From positions 62,001 through 126,000 of the forward strand of contig NZ_CP082248.1 in NCBI RefSeq assembly GCF_019879105.1: a stretch of 64,000 nt of DNA, in the 5' to 3' direction. A program made the translations under genes and the position numbers. The DNA is from Natrinema sp. SYSU A 869 (GTDB lineage: Archaea > Halobacteriota > Halobacteria > Halobacteriales > Natrialbaceae). This document shows positions 1,353 through 40,248 of the stretch, in pieces. Under the pieces are notes generated by a model. It did no database searches, was not told where the DNA came from, and saw only the letters and a list, made by a program, of their open reading frames with translations. Each line of letters opens with the position of its first letter. Position 1 is the first letter of the stretch.

Positions 1353-3779
1353 ATGGAGTACCACGAGGCAGTCAACTATCTGGAGAGTCTGGACCGTTCC
1401 CGTCCGAAGCTCGGGACGGAGACGACCGCTAGGATGCTATCCGCTCTCGGAGATCCACACGAGAAAGTCGACTGCGTCCAGATAGCGGGGTCGAACGGGA
1501 AAGGGAGCACAGCGGTGATGCTCGAACGGGTACTGCGGGAAGCGGGCCTTAACGTCGGCCTATATACCTCCCCAGACCTGAACGACTTCCGCGAGCGGAT
1601 CCGGATCAACGGAGGGAAAGTCTCGAAGGAACGCGTCCGATCGTTCGTCGAGGAGATCAAACCATGTCTCTCACGACTGCGCGGCGACGGTGACTGTCCA
1701 ACGTACTTTGAGGTACTGACCGTACTCGCATTGCAGCATTTTGGCAGTGAAGACGTCGATGTGGCAGTCCTCGAAGTCGGTATCGGTGGTCGGCACGACG
1801 CAACGAGCGTCGTAGACCCAGTGGCCGGTGCCGTCACGAACGTGAGCCTAGAGCACACCGACGTTCTCGGCGAGACGATCGAAGAGATCGCCCGAGACAA
1901 AGCGCAAGTCGCACCGGACGGGAAACAGCTCGTAACGAGTGCAAATGGCGAAGCGCTCGAGGCGATCCGATCCGAAACGGAGGTCGTCACTGTGGGCGAA
2001 GCAGAGGCCGACACCATCGCCCGAGAGGGTGAAATGACCTCGCAGGTCGAAACAACCGTCTTGATACTCGGTCGGGAGTGGAATGTCGAGACGAACCTTC
2101 CGTTGCTTGGCCAGCACCAGGCGACCAACGCCGGAGTTGCGGCGACTCTCGCCCGACAAGTAGCGAAAGTCGAGACCTCTGCGATCGAACTCGGACTCCG
2201 CAGCGCCCACTGGCCGGGTCGGTTTGAAGTAATGTCGACCAACCCGCTGGTGATCCTCGACGGTGCTCACAACCCGGCCGCGTGCGAGACGCTCGCTGAT
2301 CTCGTCGACCGGTACGAGTTCGACGGATTACACCTCGTCTTCGGCGCGATGAAAGAAAAAGACCACTCGAGAATGGCAGCGGAACTCCCTGAATCGGACG
2401 TGCTCCACCTCTGTCAGCCAGATGTGAGTCGGGCCGCGTCCTTCGACACGCTAACAGGAGCGTTCGAGACGTACACAGCCCAGATCGAGCGGGACAAGAC
2501 GGTACAAATGGCAGTCGAACGGGCGCTCAACTCGGCAGACAGCGACGACTGCGTACTGATCACCGGTTCACTGTACGTCGTCGCCGAAGCTCGCGATCGA
2601 TGGACGCAGCGCCAGATCCCAAAACAAGCTGATACACTCGACGCTGCGCGATCCGTTCTCTCCGAAGCGTACGTTCAGGATGGGTTCGCCAACCGTATCG
2701 CTAAAGACACTGTCACCAATACGTTCAAAATTCAGTTGCGCAAGAAGCAGGCGGAGTATCTACAGCAGACGATGCAATCCATCGGCGGGACGTGTGTCGT
2801 CTCAGAGATCGATTCTCCCGGGCGACATGTATCCGTCGTCCTATCTGGAACTGCCACCCAGTACGAACGTTTGGCCGACACGATCCAAAGCAGTGATTTG
2901 GGACTTTCGTACGTTTCGGAACGGTTCAGGGAGATTATCAGCGATAGCGAAGAGGCCGACCAGTATCCGTGGGATGCCGACACGGCAGTCATGGGTATCC
3001 TGAACGTTACTCCGGACAGTTTCTACGACGGCGGCCGGTACGCTCAGATGGAGGACTCCGTACGACGAGTCCGTGAAATGGTTTCCTCGGGCGCGGACAT
3101 TGTCGACGTCGGCGGCGAGAGTACGCGGCCGGGAGCCGATCCGATCACGGTTGAGGAGGAGATCGAGCGTGTCGTCCCGGTTATCGAACGCATCTCCGGG
3201 ACAGACGTGCCAATCTCTGTCGATACGAGGAGAGCCGCTGTCGCAGACGCCGCCCTGGAGGCGGGCGCAGACATAATCAATGACGTCTCCGGACTAGCAG
3301 ATCCGGACATGCGATTCGTCGCTGCCGACCACGATGCGCCGGTCGTCGTCATGCACAGCGTAGATGCCCCGGTCGATCCGGACCGATCGACGGCGTACGA
3401 CGATGTCGTCGAGGACGTCATCCGTGAACTCGGTCAACGAGTGTTGCTCGCCGAACAGGCGGGACTCGATCGCGATCAGATCATCGTCGATCCCGGACTC
3501 GGCTTCGGAAAGTCCGCCACAGAGTGCTTCGAGTTGGTCGACAGGCTGGGGGAACTGCGTGCTCTCGGTTGTCCGATCATGGTCGGCCATTCCCGCAAGT
3601 CCATGTTCGAGCGCGTTGACTGCAGTATCGACGATCGACTACCGCCGACGGTAGCAACGACGACCATGGCGGCCGAGCGAGGTGCGGATATCGTCCGCGT
3701 CCACGACGTCGAAGAGAACGCCACTGCGATCCGGACGGTTCGAGAAACGAACAGTACGGACAGAAAGGAGCCATACTAG
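1353..3779 (+). CDS. folCP: Bifunctional folylpolyglutamate synthase / dihydropteroate synthase
   Basis: Fusion of two folate-pathway enzymes, as known in haloarchaea. Residues ~1-430 are FolC/Mur-ligase-like: P-loop GSNGKGST at about residue 46, then the ligase core with DGAHNPAAC. Residues ~545-808 are FolP: VMGILNVTPDSFYDGG, DVGGESTRPGA, DIINDVSG, DPGLGFGKS, and VGHSRKSMF give the pterin/pABA barrel signature. The linker between them is unlike either domain. I chose ATG 1353 over GTG 1338 because a TATA-like element sits ~25 nt before it and MEYHEAV fits the family N-terminus. Total about 808 residues. It would make dihydropteroate and add glutamates to the folate. Confidence 0.93.
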   Translation: MEYHEAVNYLESLDRSRPKLGTETTARMLSALGDPHEKVDCVQIAGSNGKGSTAVMLERVLREAGLNVGLYTSPDLNDFRERIRINGGKVSKERVRSFVEEIKPCLSRLRGDGDCPTYFEVLTVLALQHFGSEDVDVAVLEVGIGGRHDATSVVDPVAGAVTNVSLEHTDVLGETIEEIARDKAQVAPDGKQLVTSANGEALEAIRSETEVVTVGEAEADTIAREGEMTSQVETTVLILGREWNVETNLPLLGQHQATNAGVAATLARQVAKVETSAIELGLRSAHWPGRFEVMSTNPLVILDGAHNPAACETLADLVDRYEFDGLHLVFGAMKEKDHSRMAAELPESDVLHLCQPDVSRAASFDTLTGAFETYTAQIERDKTVQMAVERALNSADSDDCVLITGSLYVVAEARDRWTQRQIPKQADTLDAARSVLSEAYVQDGFANRIAKDTVTNTFKIQLRKKQAEYLQQTMQSIGGTCVVSEIDSPGRHVSVVLSGTATQYERLADTIQSSDLGLSYVSERFREIISDSEEADQYPWDADTAVMGILNVTPDSFYDGGRYAQMEDSVRRVREMVSSGADIVDVGGESTRPGADPITVEEEIERVVPVIERISGTDVPISVDTRRAAVADAALEAGADIINDVSGLADPDMRFVAADHDAPVVVMHSVDAPVDPDRSTAYDDVVEDVIRELGQRVLLAEQAGLDRDQIIVDPGLGFGKSATECFELVDRLGELRALGCPIMVGHSRKSMFERVDCSIDDRLPPTVATTTMAAERGADIVRVHDVEENATAIRTVRETNSTDRKEPY

Positions 3780-34971: not shown

Positions 34972-35949
34972 GGCCTTGTTTAGACGCTCAAACGTTAACA
35001 GTGTAGAGCCGATCGAACTCGTATCGTCGTACTAGTAGCTCGGAGAAAATACCAAATCTACTAGGAAGTGAAGCGGGACGGGTTCGTTGTGCACACGAAG
35101 ACCTCCCGCTTCACAGAGAAGGTTGTATCGCTCGCCCAAAAAGCCGTCGTTGGCACGCCAGCTCCGGTCTACCGTCCGGGAGAAGAAGGCTACGCTGACT
35201 GGGTGATTCTCGCCGTTCAGGGATTGAAAGAGTATCTCGGCCATCCGTACCGGAAGCTGATGGACGTCCTCCGCGAGATGCCGAGAGTGACGAAATCACT
35301 CGGTTTGACGCCTGAAACGGTGCCACACTTCTCGACGGTGTGTACGCGAAAGCAGGCGATTCCAATGAAGCGGTGGCGAGCGATCCTCGATCAGTCCGTC
35401 GAGCTGTATGATCTCGGTGATGTGCAGGCGATCGACGCAACCGGTGTCGATCGCGTCCAAGCCAGCCAGCACTACGCCAAACGCACCGACTACACGTTCG
35501 AGGCGGTGAAGACGACGCTGCTCATCGATTGTGAAACCAGTGCGATTCTCGATATACACTGTTCGATGAAACAACCGCACGATACACAGGTCGGCTGGCA
35601 GGTGTTAGTGCGGAATCTCGATGAGTTGGCGACTGTCGCTGCCGATAAGGGCTACGACTGGGAGGAGCTTCGCACGAGATTACGTGCAGAAAGTATCACA
35701 CCGCTGATTCCGCAGCGAGATCCTGGAATGCGGGGGTGGGCGAGAAATTTCTCATCAAGGACCGGGCGTATCACCAGCGTTCGAACGCTGAATCGGTGTT
35801 TTTCGGGCTCCGGCGCAGATACGGCGATACGCTCTGGTCGAGAACCTGGTTCGGTCAATTCCGTGAACTTGTCATGAAATCCGCCGTCCGCAACATCGAA
35901 CGCGCTATAGAGAACTCACACCCGTGAAATCACGCGTCCAAACAAGGCC
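34972..35949 (+). mobile_element. IS5-like insertion sequence with target duplication
   Basis: 978 bp. Terminal inverted repeats are GGCCTTGTTTAGACGC at the left and, on the opposite strand, GGCCTTGTTTGGACGC at the right. A 9-bp direct repeat CAGAGGATC flanks it at 34963-34971 and 35950-35958. The target is a GTGCTAAATACAGAGGA tract similar to part of the dispersed repeat right flank. Confidence 0.88.
35068..35927 (+). pseudogene. IS5-family transposase, frameshifted
   Basis: Starts with GTG 35068. DDE core: VQAIDATGVDRVQASQHYAK, then LATVAADKGYDWEELRTRLR and, after the break, HQRSNAESVFFGLRRRYGD. Frame one loses the family at about 35729; adding one A there (GGAATG to GGAAATG) restores VGEKFLIKDRAYHQRSNAES through to the stop at 35927. 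One-base loss only, so recently inactivated or a sequencing error. Confidence 0.83.
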
Positions 35950-36779: not shown

Positions 36780-37238
36780 TCACGTATCACCCCGGTACCA
36801 CAGCACTGCCCCGTATATTGATCCGATAACGACCGAGACGATGAGCGCGAGTACGATCCCGAACGCAAGATAGCCTGCGACGGGATTCGAGTACGGCATC
36901 ATCACGTCCTGTGGTGGTTCGACCGCCCACGGGCTGATATGAAAGTACGCGAGCATTCCGGCACTGAACGCGAAAAACCCGGCCCAGTACCTAGCCTCGA
37001 CGCGCCGGGTTAACGTCAGATAGAGGCTGATTGCAAGCAACGGGTAGATAGCGAGGCTATACGTGAACGCATTCACCTCCGGCGTGAGGGGCCAGCCGAC
37101 GTGATTACCACGGATAATGTGGTCGATGTGGTGCGCTATTCCTAGTACAGTTGGAACCAACACGAACAGGTAAAACGCCCGCGTCAGGGTACTGTCCTTG
37201 GTTGGCAGTTCGATCGGGAGCATGTCTTCGACTTCCAT
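36780..37238 (-). CDS. Integral membrane protein of unknown function
   Basis: About 152 residues from the ATG at 37238 (MEVEDMLPIEL). Four hydrophobic segments: FYLFVLVPTVLGIAHHIDHI with a His-rich HHIDHIIRG, FTYSLAIYPLLAISLYLTL, YWAGFFAFSAGMLAYFHISP and AFGIVLALIVSVVIGSIYGA. The HHxDH pattern in the first helix could bind a metal. No named family recognised. Confidence 0.65.
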   Translation of the reverse strand: MEVEDMLPIELPTKDSTLTRAFYLFVLVPTVLGIAHHIDHIIRGNHVGWPLTPEVNAFTYSLAIYPLLAISLYLTLTRRVEARYWAGFFAFSAGMLAYFHISPWAVEPPQDVMMPYSNPVAGYLAFGIVLALIVSVVIGSIYGAVLWYRGDT

Positions 37239-37324
37239 ATCTGGAGATCGTCTGCAGCCGCAATCAGGATTCACCCAACATGTTGGGAGAACGATCAACT
37301 CGATGTCACCCCACCAGCAACACG

Positions 37325-37876
37325 ATGACAGACAACTGCCATCGGGGTGACGAACCGATCGAACAGAAGGTTGCCGCGGAGCGCAGCGAGGAATTCGTAG
37401 TCTTCCACATTGGCCTCCGAATCAACGCGTTCTGGAAGCTCCATCGGTGGCTTCCGATCTTCCTAATCGAGCCACAGATAGTCCGGGAACTCGTCTCGGA
37501 CCCAGAGTCGGGCTTGCTCGGGAGTCGAACAGTCGTCGGACCCGGCATCCGAAACATCGGATTTGTCCAGTACTGGGACTCCTTCGAGGCCCTCCGTGAC
37601 TACGCGCGGGACAGCGATCGCCTTCATTTCCCCGCCTGGCAAGACTACTATGAAGACGGAACGAAAGAAGACGCGGCTGTCGGGATCTGGCACGAGACGT
37701 ACATCGTCGATCCCGACGACTACGAGACAGTCTACAACAATATGCCACCCCATGGTCTTGCCGCAAGCGACAGGACAGAGATCGTGCCTGCGTCGGATCA
37801 GCGGAATACAGCGGCAGGCCGATTAGGACAGACTGACGGTACCGATTCGCCGATCCATACTACCGACTCAACGTGA
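37325..37876 (+). CDS. DUF4188 domain protein (monooxygenase-like fold)
   Basis: About 183 residues from the ATG at 37325 (MTDNCHRGDEPIEQKV). Core signature: VFHIGLRINAFWKLHRWLPI, GPGIRNIGFVQYWDSFEALR and VGIWHETYIVDPDDYETVYN, characteristic of DUF4188 proteins related to phenylacetaldoxime dehydratase-like/ABM folds. The C-terminal ~35 residues are low complexity. Divergent from the HTH/membrane pair. 37877-38148 downstream shows only the ars promoter and no clear gene. Confidence 0.8.
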   Translation: MTDNCHRGDEPIEQKVAAERSEEFVVFHIGLRINAFWKLHRWLPIFLIEPQIVRELVSDPESGLLGSRTVVGPGIRNIGFVQYWDSFEALRDYARDSDRLHFPAWQDYYEDGTKEDAAVGIWHETYIVDPDDYETVYNNMPPHGLAASDRTEIVPASDQRNTAAGRLGQTDGTDSPIHTTDST

Positions 37877-38148
37877 GGATTGATTAGCGTATCTAAGGGG
37901 GAGACTATGACCGAAATAGAAAGATTCCGAGAGGTTGACGCCATCTGTAATCGACCACAGGTATCTCCTCAATCAGCCGAGATAGATGGTCAAACTGTAT
38001 GAGGCGGCCCGCTTCGCCCAGAGCGATGACATCCGGATGGGCCCAGTATGGAATTCAGATAGATTCTGGATAGAATCGGATTTTCGGGGCCATAACTCCC
38101 TCTAAAAGCTCTCTTCACGGTAGATGAACTACGACCCGAACACTTATA

Positions 38149-38178
38149 TTAGCATACCCTAATATTAGGGTATGCTAA
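38149..38178. promoter_or_regulatory. Perfect 30-bp palindromic operator of the ars operon
   Basis: TTAGCATACCCTAAT followed directly by ATTAGGGTATGCTAA: two perfect 15-bp arms. It ends 1 bp before the arsR ATG (38180) and starts within the TATA-like TTATATTA, so a bound repressor would cover the transcription start of a leaderless mRNA. This is the expected autoregulatory layout for ArsR. Confidence 0.9.
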
Positions 38179-38179
38179 A

Positions 38180-38560
38180 ATGAGTGGGCAGAAGACCAAT
38201 AGCCAGTCAGCAGAGAGCCGAGACCAACAAGGGACTGATTGCTGTACTGCCAGTCATTCGCACTCACTGGCGGAACAGGAGGTAGCCGCTGACGTAGATG
38301 TCCTTGCAACCCTCGGGAACGATACTCGGTACGAAGCGCTTCGACTTATCGCCGAGGCCGACGACGACATCTGCGTCTGTGAGATTGAACCCGCACTCGG
38401 CGTGAGCCAGGGAGCAGTCAGTCAAGCACTCTCTCGGCTCTTCAGCGCCGGCCTGGTCGAACGACGAAAGGAGGGCAGATGGCGGTATTATACCGCGACA
38501 CCGCGCGCAGAACGACTTCTCACAGTCCTCGACGATACGAGATCACACGATAATGACTGA
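38180..38560 (+). CDS. arsR: ArsR-family metalloregulatory repressor
   Basis: 126 residues. wHTH core: LATLGNDTRYEALRLIAEAD, then DDICVCEIEPALGVSQGAVS and LVERRKEGRWRYY. The CVCE at the start of the recognition region is the classic ArsR metal site (Cys-Val-Cys); an N-terminal DCC adds possible ligands. It should derepress the operon on binding arsenite. It overlaps arsM by 8 bp. Confidence 0.93.
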   Translation: MSGQKTNSQSAESRDQQGTDCCTASHSHSLAEQEVAADVDVLATLGNDTRYEALRLIAEADDDICVCEIEPALGVSQGAVSQALSRLFSAGLVERRKEGRWRYYTATPRAERLLTVLDDTRSHDND

Positions 38561-39386
38561 TACCACACCCACAACGGATGCGGATGGTGACCGTCTCAGT
38601 GCCCACGAACAGCGCACCGCCGTGCGCGAACGGTACGGACAAATCGCCACGGAGTCGGCCTCGTGTTGCGGAGAGACGGGATCCTGTAGCGAATCACCCA
38701 CAGATACGTCGAAGAAAGTCGGCTATTCGGACGACGAACTCAACGCCGTTGACGGGAACGCAAATCTGAATCTCGGCTGCGGTAATCCCACTGCGATCGC
38801 TAGCCTGGACGAAGGGGACACCGTCCTCGATCTCGGCTCCGGTGGCGGGTTCGATTGCTTCCTCGCTGCCCGCGAAGTCGGGGCGGCCGGCCACGTCATC
38901 GGCGTCGATATGACGCCCGAGATGATCGAGAAAGCCCGCCGAAACATCGAGTCGAACGCTGCACAGAACGTCGAGTTCCGAATCGGCGAAATCGAACACC
39001 TTCCGGTCGCAGATGAGTCCGTGGACGTGATCCTCTCGAATTGCGTCATCAACCTCTCGCCGGACAAACTACACGTGTTCCGCGATGCGTATCGAGTCCT
39101 CCGACCCGGCGGACGCCTCGCCATCTCGGATGGCGTCCTAACTACCGAACTACCGACCGACCTACAGTCGGATCCAGCCTCAGTAGCTGCATGTATCGGT
39201 GGAGCCGTCTCAATTCCAACGCTCGAAACGATGCTGAGCGAAGCCGGATTCACAGACGTTTCCATCGAACCGAAAGCGGACAGCGACGAGTTCATCCGTG
39301 AGTGGGACGATGAACGCGATTTGAGCGATTACGTTGTCCCAGCAACGATAGAAGGAGCAAAATCAGGAACGGAGTCTCATCCATAG
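38553..39386 (+). CDS. arsM: Arsenite methyltransferase
   Basis: 277 residues. N-terminal Cys cluster ASCCGETGSC, motif I VLDLGSGGGFDCFLAAREVG, SNCVINLSPDK and AACIGGAVS hold the Cys residues that bind As(III). It methylates arsenite using SAM, giving methylated or volatile arsenicals. Start overlaps the arsR stop; the next gene starts 1 bp after its stop. Compare the Cys-poor relative at 27143. Confidence 0.93.
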   Translation: MTDTTPTTDADGDRLSAHEQRTAVRERYGQIATESASCCGETGSCSESPTDTSKKVGYSDDELNAVDGNANLNLGCGNPTAIASLDEGDTVLDLGSGGGFDCFLAAREVGAAGHVIGVDMTPEMIEKARRNIESNAAQNVEFRIGEIEHLPVADESVDVILSNCVINLSPDKLHVFRDAYRVLRPGGRLAISDGVLTTELPTDLQSDPASVAACIGGAVSIPTLETMLSEAGFTDVSIEPKADSDEFIREWDDERDLSDYVVPATIEGAKSGTESHP

Positions 39387-39387
39387 C

Positions 39388-39789
39388 ATGAAAACGAGCC
39401 CGGACAACCGTAGTCCCGCGGTTCTGAACATGGACACCGCTACCGAATGCATCGACCAATCGAATAACGATCGATCCAGTAGACACAAGAGGTACACTAT
39501 GCATCGACCGCCGCCTGACCCACGAAAGTATCGAACCACTACTGACCCTACGTGGAGAGGTATCCTCGTATCCTACCTGATGGTAGCGTCGTTTCCGCTG
39601 TTACTCTGGGTTGTGAGCCAGCCCGTAGCTGGGACCGTAGTCGTGACGGCTATTGTCGGGCTAGCCCTCGGAGTCCGCCACGTCCATAAACTGGCTCGCT
39701 GCTTCTTCGAGTGTGGTGGGTTCGCGTTCGAACTCGGCGGGAAAATACGGGTATGTATTGCTCAGCCAAGTGTCGAAACGGCGTGCTAA
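39388..39789 (+). CDS. Small membrane protein in the ars operon
   Basis: 133 residues with a charged N-terminal half and one or two hydrophobic helices (GILVSYLMVASFPLLLWVVS, then GTVVVTAIVGLALGV). Two Cys pairs near the end (ARCFFECGG and RVCIAQ...TAC) might bind arsenite. No family recognised. It lies 1 bp after arsM and 27 bp before arsN2, so it is very probably co-expressed. The true start may be the internal ATG at MHRPPPDPRK. Confidence 0.55.
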   Translation: MKTSPDNRSPAVLNMDTATECIDQSNNDRSSRHKRYTMHRPPPDPRKYRTTTDPTWRGILVSYLMVASFPLLLWVVSQPVAGTVVVTAIVGLALGVRHVHKLARCFFECGGFAFELGGKIRVCIAQPSVETAC

Positions 39790-39816: not shown

Positions 39817-40248
39817 ATGATAACGATCGAGAAGGCGGATGAAGAAGCACTCCACCGTGTTGAATCATTCCTAAAACAGAGTAACTTGCCGTATCAGGAT
39901 GTGCGCTCAAACCCGGACTGTTTCTTCCTCGCGTACAGTGGCACGGAGTGCATCGGGAGTGGAGGCGTTGAGATGTACGGTTCAGATGGACTCCTCCGGT
40001 CTGTCGTTATCAGAGAGACCGATCGTGGACAGGGCTACGGGACGATACTGTGTGATGAGTTAGAAGAGTATGCGCGAGCGGATGGTGTTCAGATACTTTA
40101 CTTGTTGACCACGACCGCATCAGCGTTCTTCCGAGACCGAGGATATGAAGAGATCAGTCGGGAGAACACCCCACCACGTATCCAGCAAACCACCGAATTC
40201 ACGGACCTGTGCCCGAGCTCGGCCACCTGCATGCAAAAATCGCTCTGA
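39817..40248 (+). CDS. arsN2: ArsN2-type GNAT acetyltransferase
   Basis: 143 residues. GNAT core: GSGGVEMYGSDGLLRSVVIR, RGQGYGTILCDELEEYAR, and LLTTTASAFFRDRGYEEISR. The C-terminal FTDLCPSSATCM is typical of ArsN2 proteins found in ars operons. Likely modifies an organoarsenical or related toxicant by acetylation. Last gene of the arsenic operon. Confidence 0.9.
   Translation: MITIEKADEEALHRVESFLKQSNLPYQDVRSNPDCFFLAYSGTECIGSGGVEMYGSDGLLRSVVIRETDRGQGYGTILCDELEEYARADGVQILYLLTTTASAFFRDRGYEEISRENTPPRIQQTTEFTDLCPSSATCMQKSL

Follow-up and report, generated by a model that had tools for sequence, protein, structure and literature searches.

The window, a stretch of 64,000 nucleotides on contig C2 of the three-contig, 5.67-Mb genome of Natrinema sp. 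SYSU A 869, contains an arsenic resistance operon on the plus strand. The first gene, arsR (38180-38560), encodes a repressor of 126 amino acids in which the ArsR/SmtB domain (HTH_metalloreg, HTH_5) scores above the curated cut-offs (NF033788, 70.6 bits, cut-off 55; PF01022, 35.7 bits, cut-off 22). Its end is overlapped by the arsenite methyltransferase gene arsM (38553-39386; NF008823, 343.3 bits, cut-off 263), i.e., the gene order is that of the arsR2M type. Two more genes on the same strand are presumed to belong to the operon: orf133 (39388-39789), placed there by order and strand, and arsN2 (39817-40248), an arsenic resistance N-acetyltransferase gene (NF040501, 151.8 bits, cut-off 125). 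orf133 has no match in Pfam or NCBIfam, and by eye its product looks like a small membrane protein. Just upstream of arsR, an open reading frame on the same strand (37151-37876) matches the Monooxy_af470-like family (PF13826), and its true start may be internal. Further upstream lies a DDE_Tnp_1 transposase reading frame (35068-35877, PF01609), overlapped in another frame by a reading frame without a Pfam match (35736-35927); by eye, 35068-35927 seems to be a single transposase gene split over two frames.

The window ArsR has cysteine pairs at positions 21/22 and 65/67 and a glutamine, Gln82, in the recognition helix. The metal-binding box at the HTH of ArsR/SmtB proteins is printed as ELCV(C/G)D in PMC5658604, and in the window it reads ICVCE, whose outer letters are slightly unlike that motif. 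Cys65 and Cys67 are both found in all 90 distinct proteins with at least 15 of the 20 fixed operator bases defined below, Cys21 in 88 and Cys22 in 86 of them.

Directly before arsR lies a perfect 30-bp palindrome, TTAGCATACCCTAAT/ATTAGGGTATGCTAA, read from the letters of the window at 38149-38178 (no strand assigned). Between it and the ATG at 38180 lies a single base, an A at 38179. No other perfect palindrome in the window is as long, the runner-up measuring 16 bp, and when the window was resampled 60 times with a first-order Markov model, the longest palindrome ranged from 14 to 22 bp. The preliminary description of this DNA was thus right about a perfect 30-bp palindrome, although the span it gave, 38143-38182, encloses not only the palindrome but also part of the TATA box and the first codon. 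It also had the palindrome filling the gap between the TATA box and the ATG. One base is indeed left before the ATG, but at its other end the palindrome overlaps the TATA box. Since the left half-site in its extended form, TATTAG (38147-38152), lies inside TTATATTAG (38144-38152), the dyad does more than fill the space behind the TATA box.

A second exact copy of the 15-base arm is absent from the genome, and the palindrome was therefore rejected as a repeat or the end of a mobile element. With two mismatches the arm matches one other place (L003), and a reversed control gives at least as many matches. The double-site pattern derived below, allowing up to three mismatches, matches one place in the genome, with the control matching once per strand. 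The L003 match and two single-site places with one mismatch are at or below the control level, and no wider regulon was found in this genome by the double-site and single-site pattern searches.

Upstream of the palindrome, a BRE-like element, CCCGAAC (38135-38141, plus strand), which would be recognised by TFB, precedes the TATA box TTATATTA (38144-38151, plus strand), and the latter overlaps the first ArsR half-site. Both are conserved among 82 distinct promoters of related genes, the BRE-like element as CCnnAAC, and the TTA preceding TATTAG is conserved as well. For haloarchaea, PMC4983044 gives CGAAA as the BRE and TTWT as the TATA consensus.

A BRE/TATA matrix built from 117 other haloarchaeal upstream regions was aligned to 78 arsR promoters. 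The best-fitting leader is 7 nt in 45 of these, 8 nt in 22, 6 nt in eight and 4 nt in three, and for the window it is 7 nt; the estimate is rough, since the gene starts behind the matrix are predicted and most such genes were assumed to be leaderless. With leaders of 6-8 nt, the transcription start is predicted at 38172-38174 (plus strand), inside site 2. The gene had earlier been called leaderless. In Haloferax this term covers leaders of 0-5 nt and applies to 72% of the protein-coding transcripts (PMC4983044), and a leader of about 7 nt, rough as it is, falls just outside this definition, so that 'leaderless' is a tentative label here. With the start site inside the palindrome, the palindrome's own transcript would not be able to form the whole hairpin.

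Protein similarity served to gather homologs of the window ArsR, both from genome contigs and from 125 family genomes. The counts of conservation, spacers, residues and site intactness use 130 loci, of which 54 (L124-L177) were chosen for holding the operator pattern; the counts free of this selection are those on the 76 loci chosen by protein alone and on their distinct subsets. Some genomes are present in more than one locus collection, and identical sequences were collapsed. Left out of the counts were L001-L003 and L005-L010 (duplicates from the window's own genome, one pattern locus and paralogs), L057-L059 (bacterial) and L089-L123 (pattern loci, of which the arsR ones duplicate included sites).

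Close homologs share a common upstream architecture, TTATATTAG-N6-CTAATATTAG-N6-CTAA-N-ATG, which consists of two TTAG-N6-CTAA dyads with centres 16 bp apart, spanning the region from the TATA box to the start codon. Of the 20 fixed bases, at least 17 are retained at 48 of the 76 protein-chosen loci, 15 or 16 at eight loci and fewer at the other 20 loci. For protein-chosen loci scoring at least 131 bits, 46 of 49 keep at least 17, the exceptions being L022, L025 and L039. The gap between CTAA and ATG is exactly one base in 43 of 45 distinct promoters from the protein-chosen loci, and in 78 of the 82 distinct promoters of the larger set, which includes pattern-chosen loci. Over these 82 promoters, CTAATATTAG is the best conserved block. 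In the window, the two dyads correspond to the putative ArsR site 1, TATTAG-CATACC-CTAATA (38147-38164), and site 2, TATTAG-GGTATG-CTAAAA (38163-38180), which share a TA and are assigned to no strand. Relatives conserve the half-sites of site 1, its spacer only weakly, and also those of site 2, 1 nt from the ATG.

Judged from these comparisons, the element is real and well conserved, and very probably an operator, as had been proposed for the adjacent arsR. Conservation supports this, as it does the overlap with the core promoter and the fixed distance to the ATG. The further proposal, that the operator and the first codons form one regulatory unit, is borne out by the fixed spacing but not by the bases 3' of the ATG, which are conserved much less than the operator tetrads. 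The palindrome would very probably be one copy of a double site for ArsR that is widely conserved among haloarchaea.

The association with arsR starts is also seen in the order. When up to two mismatches are allowed, a 32-base pattern is found in 69 of 392 genomes, compared with two of 392 for the reversed control, and in each of the 69 it adjoins an arsR homolog. At L124-L175, 52 of these genomes were examined and have the site at the start of the arsR homolog, while the other 17 belong to the family and are among the protein-chosen loci. Genome G350 has a second site (L176), again at an arsR homolog. In the examined DNA, arsM is present at 50 of the 54 loci L124-L177 and was not found at L130, L149, L158 and L163. 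A second operator in G338 (L177, 18/20) stands before a class-V aminotransferase gene (PF00266), the gene just upstream of arsR; on the minus strand, this operator is at 1684-1715 (reverse-complement numbering) and the gene at 1703-2881. This second operator may belong to a wider ArsR regulon.

An ortholog at E <= 1e-36 is present in 20 genomes of the family, and each of them carries a 22-base pattern at no more than one mismatch. Four family genomes without a close ortholog (G024, G095, G096 and G106) also have one-mismatch matches; as the control matches two genomes and the regions of these four (L178-L181) contain no site with at least 17/20, the matches are treated as chance. Distant family homologs, e.g., L079-L085, have a variant, TATTAG-N6-CTTGTATAAG-N6-CTGA (or CTAA), with 16 or 17 of the 20 bases. 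The arsR-arsM branch of L079-L085, L182 and L183, which includes arsR2M of Halobacterium NRC-1, has drifted to TATTAG-N6-(C/A)TTGTATAAG-N6-CTGA despite Gln82, with CTAA replacing CTGA in L085.

Residue 82 lies, as we presume from an alignment to SmtB and from general knowledge of the family, within the recognition helix SQGAVSQALSRL. Gln82 is found in 54 of 73 distinct protein-chosen homologs, and 52 of the 54 have at least 15 of the 20 operator bases; the exceptions are L025, in which the second site is shifted by one base, and L042, which has no operator. None of the 14 proteins with His82 or the four with Arg82 has the operator, and the one protein with Asn82 has 15/20. Nine of the 14 distinct His82 proteins have TGAA-N6-TTCA near the start at 7 or 8 of 8 positions; it was not found there at this level in L046, L047, L048, L051 and L087, and L048 has ATGA-N8-TCAT at 8/8. 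At the Arg82 locus L039 we find TTGG-N6-CCAA, which is no better than in shuffled DNA (p 0.27). A His82 pair from Haladaptatus (L040, L041) is nested in the Gln clade and has TATGA-type sites in the same 16-bp frame. The tree was built from 83 columns with 36 of 102 inner branches well supported, and L042, L053, L054 and L078 were left out of it.

The operator letters go with residue 82, a correlation that is partly confounded by descent. One may speculate that the letters of the half-sites depend largely on residue 82 (Gln, His, Arg or Asn), with operator and repressor switching together, e.g., in Haladaptatus, and that two overlapping ArsR dimers on opposite faces would cover the TATA box, the start site and the edge of the start codon as a cooperative switch. 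This combined proposal is tentative, and we would sooner bet against it than for it.

The protein and the operon are of known kinds, the former belonging to ArsR/SmtB and the latter resembling arsR2M. On pNRC100 of Halobacterium NRC-1, an arsR homolog likewise overlaps an arsenite methyltransferase gene, the promoter has the same frame with 15 of the 20 operator bases and 1 nt to the ATG, and a Gln is found at the same place of the helix; however, the operator is weaker, with a central ATTGTATAAG. From the review PMC3600143 and the neighbouring arsA/arsD, we infer that this pair is arsR2M. According to the review, arsR2 is constitutive and arsM is induced by As(III) and Sb(III).

Operators of the 12-2-12 type (SmtB, AzuR) contain TGAA-N6-TTCA in AATACCTGAACA-GA-TGTTCAAGTATT, at or near the transcription start (PMC8790569). 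The window shares with them an inverted repeat with tetrads 6 bp apart, which occurs twice as TTAG-N6-CTAA. In contrast to these operators, the letters are TTAG/CTAA and not TGAA/TTCA, two dyads overlap in a 16-bp frame, and the element sits at a fixed position, with an archaeal TATA box on one side and the ATG on the other. Thermus thermophilus HB27 has TtSmtB, likewise an ArsR/SmtB repressor of arsenic genes with a palindromic site over core promoter elements, but this site is of the 6-2-6 type and lies over a bacterial -35 box (PMC5658604). The window operator has the geometry of the family and differs from it in the letters, the tandem overlapping arrangement and the fixed place between TATA box and ATG. 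No published description of this operator was found by title or start of abstract in the open-access PMC literature; subscription literature was mostly outside this search, so an earlier description is possible.

The perfect symmetry itself is most readily put down to chance in the window copy. A larger dyad always results when two dyads stand in tandem, and the symmetry extends over 30 bp because the free spacers of the window are fully complementary as well. Over 80 distinct operators, the two spacers are complementary at 2.00 of 6 positions on average, compared with 2.01 after permutation. Six of six is reached by the window copy only (0.21 expected), five by none and four by ten, and this permutation test gives no support for selection on overall symmetry. 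Seven relatives compared with the window have different spacers, none of them fully complementary. The spacers are weakly conserved, yet not random: spacer 2 is partly constrained, with A as its second base in 62 of 80 operators (1.05 bits). Within the sites, spacer 1 is self-complementary in 4/80 (2.1 expected) and spacer 2 in 5/80 (4.7 expected). The preliminary description had seen a single, spacer-less dyad of unusual length. This is not supported, as relatives show two TTAG-N6-CTAA dyads around a weakly conserved N6, and full complementarity of the spacers occurs in the window copy alone. With complementarity at the permuted level, the probable unit is two ArsR sites in tandem, the perfect symmetry being incidental. 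The distance of 16 bp between the centres is about 1.5 turns, which would place two dimers on nearly opposite faces of the DNA.

We suggest that the region is the autoregulatory operator-promoter of the arsR-arsM operon, where two ArsR dimers occlude the promoter until released by arsenite and the overall symmetry is incidental, and we give this reading a probability of roughly 80%. The two dimers would bind the two TTAG-N6-CTAA dyads, probably on nearly opposite faces, and cover the region from the TATA box through the start codon. This would keep TBP, TFB and RNA polymerase off, so that assembly of the transcription machinery would be blocked. Arsenite, the presumed signal because the repressor belongs to the ArsR family and is accompanied by arsM and arsN2, would be bound by the ArsR cysteines; the repressor would then be released and the operon transcribed. 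The agreement of tetrad-N6-tetrad with the TGAA-N6-TTCA of the printed 12-2-12 site, and with the TGAA sites near His82 paralogs, speaks for this reading. Against simple autorepression speaks the reported behaviour of NRC-1, where arsR2 is constitutive and arsM induced (PMC3600143). The NRC-1 operator with only 15 fixed bases, the lack of an operator in L042 despite Gln82, the shifted operator of L025 and the partial constraint on spacer 2 also count against the proposed reading.

A competitor to two dimers is a single ArsR dimer on the whole long dyad, or on the central CTAATATTAG, with the 30-bp symmetry itself being selected. The window copy is symmetric across all 30 bp, and the best conserved of all blocks is the central one. 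This central dyad is intact in 64 of 80 operators, compared with 58 for site 1 and 68 for site 2, and these figures were counted against the tandem-dimer explanation. The same applies to unpaired deviations of tetrads within the sites: among 87 operators with at least 15/20 bases, all tetrads are intact in 54, tetrads 2 and 4 deviate jointly without 1 and 3 in five, and tetrads 1 and 2 alone deviate jointly in two. However, spacers that are no more complementary than permuted ones, with full symmetry once in 80, make a single dimer quite improbable, as does the known geometry of the family, tetrad-N6-tetrad. In L022, site 1 has decayed while site 2 is intact, and this pattern favours separate sites.

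Two other explanations concern the origin of the symmetry and the identity of the binding protein. A templated (quasi-palindrome) mutation, in which one spacer was copied from the other via a hairpin or a template switch, would be compatible with an ArsR operator. It could account for the six complementary positions where 0.21 such operators are expected among 80 and none is seen at five. We regard it as unlikely, as an expectation of 0.21 is too common to require a special event, and the window spacers match none of those in the seven relatives, so that no donor arm can be named. As ArsR binding is itself deduced, the dyad might also be the target of another regulator, a terminator or a mobile-element end, and no ArsR operator at all. 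This is very hard to reconcile with a pattern that accompanies arsR starts in the 69 genomes having it, changes along with the recognition helix of ArsR, has a single location in the window's genome and overlaps the core promoter.

Read as a tandem pair of ArsR sites, the palindrome ceases to be an isolated curiosity and becomes an operator for arsenic resistance in haloarchaea that is well defined and can be tested. It also carries a caution, namely that perfect symmetry over a long stretch can come from two ordinary sites with spacers that match by chance. The operator would supply a design for arsenite-inducible promoters in haloarchaea and, if the link to residue 82 is true, the family would show cleanly how a repressor and its operator can change letters together while the frame stays fixed.
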